From assembly GCA_029834535.1 (NCBI GenBank), contig JAQMWT010000315.1, positions 124,001 through 188,000 of the forward strand: a stretch of DNA of 64,000 bases, in the 5' to 3' direction. Below are positions 30,820-36,880 of the stretch, piece by piece. This DNA comes from Chrysophaeum taylorii. Lineage: Eukaryota > Sar > Pelagophyceae > Pelagomonadales > Pelagomonadaceae. Below the pieces are notes generated by a model. The model had not been told where the DNA came from. It saw only the letters and a list, made by a program, of their open reading frames with translations, and searched no databases. The number at the start of each line of letters is the position of its first letter. Positions within the stretch are counted from its first letter, which is position 1. A program made the position numbers and the translations under genes.

Positions 30820-33800
30820 ATGATGAACCACCACTTTTCGTGGGCCTTCAGGGGCGAGGACGGCCGACCGCTCCGGACGCGAGGGGAGATGCTGAAGAAG
30901 GGAGGGAGCCGAAACCGCGCGAGCTTCGCTGGACGCAAGTGGCAGAAGCGGTTCTTCGCTTTGGACATCGATCGCACCGAGCTACGGTACTACGACGACG
31001 CCGCGATGGCCGCACAAAAAGGTGTTGTTCAGCTGACGCCCGAGACGCAAATCCAGGACAAGGGCCCCCGCGATTTCCAGCTGACGGCCTGCAAGGATGA
31101 CAGGGGCGTGATGCGCGAAGGGCCCGTCGAGTTACGAGCGCGCGATTCCGACGAGAAAGACGAGTGGACGACCTCGATCGCCTTCTCGCTCAACCTCGTC
31201 GTCCACGCGACGACGACGAATATGCAGCACCGGGTTGACCAACTTCGATTGCCGCGATCGATCACGCCGGTCGACGACGACGAGGAGATGGCACGGCCTC
31301 GAACAGCGGGCGCGAGAGCCTCGACGAGAGCCTCGATGAGAGCGGCGATGAGTGCGCTCGAGGAAATGGAAATCACGTGTGGCGGCGAGGGCTCTATGAA
31401 ATGGCGAGGCGTCGCGGCCGTCGGCACCACCAACACGCTCTTCTGTGCGCCATACAACGCCTCGACGGTGCTGGTGATCGACGCCGAGACCAAAGAGGTC
31501 GCAACGATAGAGTGCGAGGAGGTCGACGAGAAGAAATGCAAATGGACGGGCATCGCGGCCGTGGGGAACACCTTGTTCTGTGCGCCTTTCGATGCGTCAG
31601 AGGTGCTCGTGATCGACGCCACCACAAAGTCGGTCAGCGCGATCGACTGCGCGGGCTACTCTTTCGGCGGAAAGGAGGAGCGCGCGACCCGCAAATGGAT
31701 GGGCATCGCTGCCGTGGGGAACACCTTGTTCTGTGCGCCTTTCGATGCGTCGTCGGTGCTCGTGATCGACGCCACCACAATGTCGGTCAGCACCGTAAAA
31801 TGCGGCGTCGAGGGCGACGGCAAGTGGAGCGGCATCGCGGCAGTCGGCAGGACGCTCTTCTGTGCCCCGCACAACGCGTCGTCGTTGCTCGTCGTCGACG
31901 CCAAGACCAAATCGGTCAGCAAGATCGAGTGCGGCGTCGACGGTCCCTCAAAATGGAGCGGCATTGCGGCCGTGGGCGACACCCTGTTCTGCGCGCCGTA
32001 CGACGCGTCGTCGGTGCTCGTCGTCGACACCAAAATCAAGTCGGTCAGCACGATCGAGTGCGGCATCACCACCGGCGACGCCAAATGGAGCGGCATCGTG
32101 GCGGTGGGACCAACCCTGTATTGCGCGCCATACAACGCGTCGCCGGTGCTCGCAATCTCTTCGAAAACTAAAACCCTCCGCGCGCTCGATCGCCGCGAGG
32201 AGGAGGAGGAGATGTTTGGGACTAATTGGAGCGGCATCGCGGCGGCGGGCGAGACACTATTCTGCGCGCCGCAAGACGCCTCGTCGGTGCTCGTCATCCA
32301 TTCGAGGCGTGCCGACGAGATCATTACGCTGGGGCTAGCGGACGACGACGAGACTTTCGCGACCTCGTTCGTGGAGGAGGAGGACGACGAGGCGATCATC
32401 AATTCGGCGATCGAGGACAAGGCGACCGCGACGGGCGCTGCGCTCAACGACAACGCGAAGGGCGGTATCGATCGCTTCGGGTACCGCTCCTACGCCAAGG
32501 GCCTCGCCGAGATGCTCCACCGTGCCGAGCCGCCCGTCGGCGTGGGGATCTTTGCGAAATGGGGTGCGGGCAAGTCCTTCATGATCTCCCTGTTGAAGAA
32601 GGAGTTCGACCCAACGGCCCGCGAACACACCCGGTCGCACGACCTCGTGCAGTGGTTTGAGAAAGGATACGAGGACCTACCACAAGCGATGACGGAGAAA
32701 GACGAGTTCTACGCGGCGACGACCGCGCTGCTCTTCTCGGTTCCCGAGGCGCCGCTGTGGCTTGCGACGCTATACACGGCCATCATAGAAACGTTTGTTG
32801 ATGTCTTCAAGGTCGCGTGGGCATTGGTCGAGACGCTTGCTCATCTCTTCAAGTTCTCGCGGGTATGGCACGTGCCACTCTGCGCGTCCGGCGGCGTCGT
32901 TGGCGCGATCGCTTCGACGACCATCGTACCGCGAATAATGACAACACTAGCCTCGTCGTCCTCGTCTTGGAAGCACACATTCCAATACTTGGAGTGGCTG
33001 CAGCGTTGTTCCGAGCTCGCCTTGGTCTGCGTCGGCTTTATTATTGGAGTCGCCATCTCGCTCCTCGTTCTTCGCTACTGCGAACGTCGCGCCCAAAAGT
33101 ACGAGGACTGGCGGCCATGGGCATGGCGCGTCGAGCTTTGCGTGTCTTGTGGCTTCCTCGGCGCACTCGTCTTTTCTCGCGCGAGAATGCTACGCGCTTT
33201 TGACTCCGTGTCTTGGCACTACCCAAAGTGGCTGCGCGGCGGCGGCGGTTCGAAACTCGCGTCTGTCTTTGGATTCGGCGCCGGCGTCGTCGTCGGCGCG
33301 CTCATCGGGCAGCTCGTTCTGCACTATCGTGGTCCGCAGAAGAATAAAGACACGGAGCGATCTCGACTCGAAGATTTAGAAGCGCACGTTCCCCTCGGAC
33401 CATACTACGACGGCGAAACCCGGAAGGATAAAGAGTACATATTCGTCGACTTCAACGCGTGGGAGTACGCGGGCTCGAACGAGGTCTGGACAGGCCTCGT
33501 CGCCAACTTGTACAACAAGGTCGAAAGCCGCATCGCTCGGGGCAAGCGACAAAAAGTACACCGTTCGAACTACGGCTCGCCCGATCGCGACGACGCGCCG
33601 ATCGCTCCGGAGCGCGGCGGCGGCGTGGCCTCGGGTACTAATGTCAACTTCAAACGCAAATGGCGTGTGAGAACGGCGATGGCGCTGCTCAAACGTCGGT
33701 ATGGAGTGCGTGGACTCGAACTGCGCGTGTTTTTGTTCGTAGGAATAGCAGTCGCGTTCGTCGCGATATTGTTTTTCGAGGCCCTCGGCATTTCTAACGC

Positions 33801-36800: not shown

Positions 36801-36880
36801 TTCTATTCGTTCAGTCCCAATCCCACGCAGACGATCATCAGGACGGTGCTCCCCGCAAACGCCTTATCTCTGGCTTTTAG
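30820..36880 (+). CDS. PH / two 7-blade propeller / KAP P-loop NTPase membrane protein (3 exons)
   Basis: Predicted exons are 30820-34215, 34309-36149 and 36256-36880, about 1,953 residues. The last exon's end is provisional.

Order: PH domain (about 22-127, LKKGGSRNRASFAGRKWQKR...); seven 'KWSGIAAVGDTLFCAPYDASSVLVID' type blades (about 189-497); KAP NTPase Walker A AKWGAGKS (Lys585); about four membrane helices inside the NTPase, then two more; a KAP signature FVDFNAWEYAGSNEVW; Walker B VDDLDRC (Asp1094-Asp1097); the intron; the KAP motif GWEYLDKIIQIPF; a second set of seven blades (about 1312-1600); then the KAP C-terminal part (NPRRLKRIVNTYQ) and a further soluble region.

KAP proteins are membrane-associated P-loop ATPases of the STAND-like group. 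Here PH could target phosphoinositides and the propellers could bind partners; that is inference. Confidence 0.85.
34216..34308 (+). other. Intron 1 of the KAP gene
   Basis: GTGAGA donor and AAATAAAG acceptor; 93 bp, phase 0. Joining gives AIDSRI|VVASIEDTF, restoring the KAP motif that otherwise breaks at the stop at 34284. Confidence 0.85.
35797..35825 (+). repeat. GAG trinucleotide run (poly-Glu) in the KAP gene
   Basis: A short in-frame (GAG)n run encodes an acidic linker between the second propeller and the KAP C-terminal region. Confidence 0.8.
36150..36255 (+). other. Intron 2 of the KAP gene
   Basis: GTAACA donor and GATGCCAG acceptor; 106 bp. The split codon GA|G gives Glu and the protein continues KWICLCE|CYPYRISLLILTLVDQQQ, as expected for the KAP C-terminal helical region. 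The alternative, a stop at 36153, would truncate the domain. Confidence 0.75.

Follow-up and report, generated by a model that had tools for sequence, protein, structure and literature searches.

The gene described here, from the alga Chrysophaeum taylorii, is predicted to encode a protein of 1953 amino acids in which a PH domain, a seven-bladed propeller and a KAP NTPase with hydrophobic inserts follow one another, and in which a second seven-bladed propeller precedes the rest of the KAP domain. It lies on the plus strand, from an ATG at 30820 to a stop at 36880 of the window, that is, the whole stretch of 64,000 nucleotides that was analysed. Every part of this protein comes from a known family, and the arrangement is new to us. 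With a probability of roughly 55%, we propose that it is a membrane-anchored KAP NTPase acting as a nucleotide-switched signalling scaffold, with the propellers serving as its binding modules.

The gene model has three exons and no inner stops. Exon 1 (30820..34215, residues 1-1132) is an open frame with Pfam matches to both PH and KAP, and would be followed by a phase 0 intron of 93 nt with GT..AG borders (34216..34308), past which both the frame and the KAP homology run on. Exon 2 (34309..36149), another open frame, takes up the protein at residue 1133 with 613 whole codons and 2 nt, and a second predicted GT..AG intron, of 106 nt (36150..36255), leads to exon 3 and the stop (36256..36880). 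The GC content of the introns is 0.43 and 0.44, against 0.59 for the coding sequence. The last ~50 residues are unsure, since after ~36740 another frame, which by eye resembles the preceding sequence, is plausible.

Splicing into three exons and a single transcript are thus predictions of the model, and two or more adjacent genes (propeller, KAP, propeller) might have been read as one through an error of gene model or assembly. The two introns, deduced from sequence alone, and the uncertain end of exon 3 would allow for this. However, the PH domain, the first propeller and the KAP domain to a point past Walker B share one intron-free frame of 1132 codons, and the second propeller shares the frame of exon 2 with KAP sequence on either side, so that its insertion needs no choice of intron. 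We therefore regard such an artefact as highly implausible.

The NTPase is recognised by Pfam as KAP_NTPase at residues 555-1191 (E 1.3e-32; 113.6 bits against a cut-off of 20), the match spanning positions 1-250 of the 293 in the profile. KAP is the sole NTPase family found, with no STAND match (NACHT or NB-ARC) in Pfam at E up to 1. Walker A lies around K585 (32551..32577, plus strand), as placed by Pfam and by alignment with bacterial KAP proteins; the same alignment places Walker B, IVCYVDDLDRC, with D1094, D1095 and D1097 (34084..34116), and the strand DKIIQIPF at residues 1157-1164 (34381..34404). A previous sequence-only reading of this DNA had pointed to Lys585 and to Asp1094 and Asp1097, all of which were located as claimed, D1095 being an addition. 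Walker A, the DDLDR of Walker B and NPRxxKRxxN, which we take to be a lid or sensor-2-like motif, are all present in that order. At the N-terminus, residues 21-120 (30880..31179, plus strand) match the Pfam PH domain (PF00169, E 1.9e-5) with 25.6 bits, barely above the cut-off of 25.1.

Two inserts within the NTPase would anchor it in the membrane. The first (residues 685-834; 32872..33321, plus strand) contains three or four hydrophobic segments, at 685-703, 733-751, 773-791 and 816-834, with hydropathy values over 19 residues of 1.67, 2.98, 1.49 and 2.14, respectively; the second (residues 968-1030; 33721..33909, plus strand) contains two, at 968-986 and 1012-1030 (2.72 and 1.83). These segments coincide with long inserts in the KAP alignment, the first insert lying in a gap of it. 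As one segment of the first insert reaches only 1.49, the number of crossings is unsure, with five or six segments in total. If each insert crosses the membrane an even number of times, all the soluble parts would lie on one side of it. Membrane helices within the NTPase were reportedly described by Aravind in 2004 as the mark of the eukaryotic KAP type.

The propellers are evident from their repeats. Propeller 1 occupies residues 194-500 (31399..32319, plus strand), its first blade starting at W195 and its last at W470, and propeller 2 occupies residues 1310-1605 (34840..35727, plus strand), with blades starting from W1311 to W1576, spacing being 43-51 residues in each. The 14 blades bear out the previous suggestion of two sets of seven, one before the KAP domain and one within it. 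No propeller family exceeded its Pfam cut-off in the spliced protein; the YVTN repeat of NCBIfam (TIGR02276, cut-off 27.85) reached 31.7 bits in exon 1 and 25.8, below the cut-off, in exon 2, and a sequence search of the PDB returned the YVTN propeller 1l0q (E 0.0075). The three kinds of domain that had been read by eye, PH, KAP and propeller, are in this way each recognised by a profile above its cut-off, the last one through exon 1.

Structure prediction, carried out on exons 1 and 2 separately, recovered seven blades in each propeller at low to moderate confidence and left the PH fold at low confidence and the KAP core with no confident fold in either exon model. For exon 2, with propeller 1 supplied as the second row of the input, AlphaFold built 28 strands (7 x 4), with pLDDT mostly 53-78 in the propeller block and a mean of 51.1 for the whole model. 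For exon 1 it built 27 strands in seven blades, with pLDDT 38-69 in the block, below 50 in blade 7, and a whole-model mean of 37.6; the 28th strand could come from EMEITC, just before the first blade. Searched with Foldseek against the PDB, the exon 2 model matched 1l0q (E 3.3e-14) and virginiamycin B lyase (TM-score 0.79 by target length), and the exon 1 model YncE (0.73) and virginiamycin B lyase (0.81), all of which we take to be seven-bladed. Lower matches include an eight-blade design (0.62, exon 2) and six-blade designs (0.59-0.60, exon 1) below the seven-blade rings at the top, so the fold search alone would leave the count unfixed; it is the repeats together with the strands that fix it at seven. 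Blade counts in this work rest on the alignment of the 14 blades and on the printed sequences, not on the automatic blade counter, which missed one blade of propeller 1 and some elsewhere and reported one false unit in locus L034. The same counter gave 8 units for locus L044.

The position of propeller 2 within the KAP domain was established, at the level of sequence, through the exact lid motif and a comparison with bacterial KAP proteins, not through a profile score. For the comparison, 13 KAP proteins were fetched out of 30 plasmid records that matched KAP. Twelve of them carry NPRxxKRxxN (as GNPR in 11 and ENPR in 1), the one without it being L065. In the eight in which a simple pattern found both marks, the distance from IQIP to the motif is 88-96 residues in seven and 44 in the remaining one. 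In the algal protein, 537 residues separate the start of DKIIQIP (1157) from NPRRLKRIVN (residues 1694-1703; 35992..36021, plus strand), with propeller 2 in between. No other NPRxxKRxxN occurs in any of the window's six frames (127,996 codons in total), and when the 300 residues that follow propeller 2 were shuffled 200,000 times, the pattern appeared in none of the shuffles. A profile of the 13 proteins aligns in three pieces, with positions 9-88 at residues 548-626, 61-302 at 868-1184 and 357-389 at 1683-1713; the third piece, which includes the motif, scores only 2.3 bits by itself, and the sequence after the propeller, taken alone, was beaten by 1 of 200 shuffles. Removing both propellers in silico did not carry the Pfam match beyond position 250 of the 293 in the profile, which means that the insertion could not be demonstrated with Pfam by itself. 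Taken together, there is good evidence that propeller 2 separates the NTPase core from the lid motif. The domain order proposed before, with PH, propeller, a KAP domain split by a second propeller, and membrane helices, is thus retraced by Pfam, the repeats, hydropathy and the order of the lid motif.

Regarding their origin, the two propellers share an in-register blade identity of 0.691, a value reached by 104 of the 5040 possible blade orders, and a whole-propeller duplication giving rise to both is modestly supported. They are sisters (100/100) in a tree of 16 propellers in which shuffled labels were equally clustered in 52 of 500 cases, 9 of 13 internal branches are shown as open, and propellers 1 and 2 have a letter make-up unlike the rest. 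Within this tree, the blade with LFCAP..AS forms a subgroup of its own, and the propellers of seven kinase genes described below, plus that of locus L037, are set apart from the others by a branch (100/100).

These relatives were found in the same genome (70.8 Mb in 697 contigs), where 48 matches to the propeller query were obtained at E 0.001, in the gene of the window and in 14 other loci, which were all retrieved. Seven of these loci (L033-L036 and L038-L040) are long single frames encoding a propeller and then a protein kinase (Pfam Pkinase in 7/7), and end in a Cys-rich tail that is RING/IBR-like by eye, with no RING/IBR match in Pfam at E 0.01. L037 consists of a propeller frame only, L041 and L045 seem to be broken, and L042, L043, L044 and L046 are more distant propellers. 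Within one algal genome, the propeller subgroup thus occurs both on a KAP protein and on a family of kinases, the kinase genes combining it with a kinase and a Cys-rich tail and having no KAP domain.

Outside this genome, a query built from an alignment of two blades found seven loci among 30 candidate stretches in viral contigs, and one locus, in a Prevotella MAG, among 13 stretches in bacterial and archaeal genomes. The complete propellers among them (L050, L051, L053 and L057) have seven blades each, and by eye their printed frames contain no NTPase; L050 and L053 belong to PHROGs families of unknown function, and L057 was searched with NCBIfam. In viral contigs, no relative was found with propeller 2 alone or with the KAP stretch 33424-34215 as query, and in phages and plasmids propeller 2 had no match at E 1e-5.

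The occurrence of this propeller type on other partners, both in the genome and in contigs of the viral collection, and the sister relationship of propellers 1 and 2, would also fit a purely structural role, in which the propellers are a sticky module that was amplified, was inserted by duplication and keeps the protein in a complex without regulating the NTPase. We consider this improbable. On both sides of the insertion the reading frame and the motifs of the NTPase are preserved, and the blades are under purifying selection overall; both findings argue for a working protein and are compatible with a structural role as well. Pooled over the 14 blades and 37 columns, pN is 0.220 and pS 0.545 (ratio 0.40); within a core of 32 residues, propeller 1 has a mean blade identity of 0.60 and a pN/pS of 0.52, and propeller 2 has values of 0.70 and 0.38, respectively. 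Mean blade identity stays below 85%, with single pairs up to 0.88; in this analysis of identity the blade counts were short for L035, L036 and L037 (6 each) and for L057 (4).

The same values bear on another reading, the self/non-self sensing suggested before, in which the propellers would recognise an invader or a partner and the KAP domain would oligomerise to trigger a response, as in NLRs with WD40 propellers. Among the blades of this one protein, the marks of rapidly diversifying recognition repeats are largely absent. High internal conservation combined with diversifying selection finds no support in the identities and the pooled ratio given above; pN exceeds pS in 3 of the 37 columns (9, 16 and 30), which would favour a sensor. 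In the part of PMC4986451 drawn on here, fungal repeats count as highly conserved internally when they are more than 85% alike, a level that the algal blades do not reach on average. The fungal NLRs of HET-E type described there share with our protein an NTPase and a repeated propeller in one chain; however, their NTPase is NACHT and not KAP, and their propeller is C-terminal and not internal.

Bacterial KAP proteins occur in defence systems. With PADLOC, exon 1 matches QatA (E 4e-12) and PifA (E 6.9e-8), and qatA or qatC is annotated at or beside 9 of the 13 plasmid KAP genes. The KAP core and the lid motif are shared with QatA; its NCBIfam equivalog model NF041923 gives 54.5 bits, far below its cut-off of 600, and no propeller blades were seen by eye in five bacterial KAP proteins. 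The excerpts used here report that, in conflict systems of bacteria, KAP can replace NTPases of the STAND type (PMC8195603). This replacement, the PADLOC matches and the neighbouring qat genes, together with the same propeller on a family of kinase genes, would speak for a sensor. Against it, a single KAP locus was detected in the six frames of the genome, among the best candidates, and the genome also contains NACHT matches. An immune-type sensor is thus an unlikely reading, and the suggestion of self/non-self sensing finds little support.

The closest animal counterpart would be Kidins220/ARMS, which the sequence after the lid motif presumably resembles. In the part of PMC4632323 that we rely on, Kidins220 serves receptor signalling and is a KAP NTPase whose NTPase domain contains four membrane segments and whose N-terminal region carries repeats; for other KAP NTPases, a role in both building and taking apart signalling complexes on the cytosolic face of membranes is suggested there. 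The algal protein has five or six hydrophobic segments instead of four, and the repeats of Kidins220 are ankyrin repeats, accompanied by a SAM domain and a PDZ ligand, with neither a PH domain nor a propeller named in that part of the source. Conversely, ankyrin and SAM gave no Pfam match in the algal protein at E up to 1. With 1l0q, YncE and virginiamycin B lyase, propellers of YVTN/NHL-like type, it has in common the fold and the YVTN repeat profile, and to our knowledge none of the three is fused to an NTPase. No KAP protein with a propeller of its own was found in the open-licence literature on KAP, in agreement with the initial impression that a second propeller inserted in the KAP domain, plus an N-terminal PH domain, is unfamiliar among described KAP proteins. 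The nearest cases were the replacement of STAND NTPases by KAP mentioned above and a study of hypermutated bacterial sensors, in which some targets have a KAP NTPase and a WD40 propeller belongs to a neighbouring peptidase (PMC10907252). However, many seemingly unique domain combinations appear in sparsely sampled lineages; in the sections of PMC3499355 that we cite, around 760 were counted in Aureococcus and considered probably in part a sampling effect.

Starting from the NTPase motifs, inserts and propeller placement seen in the predicted protein, we infer how assembly, binding and gating may work in a signalling scaffold at the membrane. Purified QatA forms heptamers or octamers, according to the part of PMC13279940 used here, and these oligomers, along with the membrane segments of Kidins220 and the complex assembly suggested for other KAP NTPases, lead us to propose a membrane-tethered, ring-forming nucleotide switch. 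With an even number of crossings per insert, the PH domain, the propellers and the NTPase would all face the cytosol, where the PH domain would add a contact to lipids and the propellers would bind a protein or another ligand. The Arg-Lys-Arg of the lid motif probably contacts the nucleotide or a neighbouring subunit. Propeller 2 being located in the lid region, a ligand bound to it could help or prevent the closing of the lid and the assembly of the ring, and thereby switch the scaffold.

According to the literature excerpts used here, a neuronal scaffold of animals and defence proteins of bacteria both belong to the KAP NTPases, and a whole propeller lying after the core and before the lid motif would make the lid a possible site of input, in a construct that can be tested. 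A tentative extension, which we hold to be possible but doubtful, is that the protein represents a class of eukaryotic membrane sensor NTPases, in which binding to a propeller built into the lid directly switches both the nucleotide state and ring assembly, the same module also being mounted on kinases. If true, the ligand-binding propeller would be an exchangeable sensor module, common to the KAP protein and the kinase family.

As a separate observation, the genome contains 84 light-harvesting matches, and the relatives of solved structure of one of them include fucoxanthin-chlorophyll a/c proteins (among the best 60 of 366). These genes would suit a stramenopile as well as other algae with chlorophyll c, and they indicate, as far as gene content goes, a chlorophyll a/c alga.

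Seven further genes of the algal genome carry propellers of the same subgroup as those of the KAP gene, here combined with a protein kinase. Each of these propeller-kinase genes consists of one uninterrupted frame of 1297-1453 codons, located, within the stretch fetched for each locus, at 1458-5348 (L033), 1253-5356 (L034), 1166-5524 (L036), 1292-5452 (L038), and 1334-5656 (L039) on the minus strand, and at 4374-8513 (L035) and 4139-8350 (L040) on the plus strand. The protein kinase domain was recognized by Pfam in 7/7, and all of them follow the same domain order, in which the propeller is succeeded by a helical-looking middle part, the protein kinase, and a Cys/His tail. 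This tail is conserved among the seven proteins and, by eye, appears RING/IBR-like. In L038, the mean blade identity is 0.80.

Propellers related to those of the KAP gene are also encoded in contigs from a viral collection: three loci (L050, L051, and L053) encode proteins with seven blades and additional C-terminal sequence beyond the propeller, and related fragments are present in four others (L052 and L054-L056), with blade identities in these viral-collection propellers of up to 0.97 for single pairs. Blades of the same type likewise occur, seven in number, in a protein encoded by a Prevotella MAG (L057, 5914-7716), whose C-terminal part beyond the propeller consists of other sequence. Within the algal genome, more distant propellers precede sequences that, by eye, are putatively methyltransferase-like (L044, whose propeller gave eight units in the automatic blade count) and arylamine N-acetyltransferase-like (L043).

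Upstream, the KAP gene adjoins a minus-strand frame (window 29729-30733), by eye a putative UBA/UBX protein. The first Met codon of this frame and the KAP start codon are separated by about 90 nt; therefore, both genes may share a common promoter. The long minus-strand frame at 27809-29728, a putative RNA methyltransferase by eye, includes a perfect 15-nt repeat (28019-28231, 14.2 copies) encoding ETAVA repeats. Two long tandem arrays, at 6587-9482 (366-nt unit, 7.9 copies, 98% matches) and 10749-14310 (360-nt unit, 10.0 copies, 90% matches), perhaps represent repeated protein segments.

The contigs of this genome gave one NB-ARC match and 16 NACHT matches, 15 of them above the cut-off (for example, C391:303970-304500 and C396:22593-23030), in frames of 803-3406 codons. 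The same NACHT search in control genomes gave matches in 11 of 14, above the cut-off in 3 of 14.
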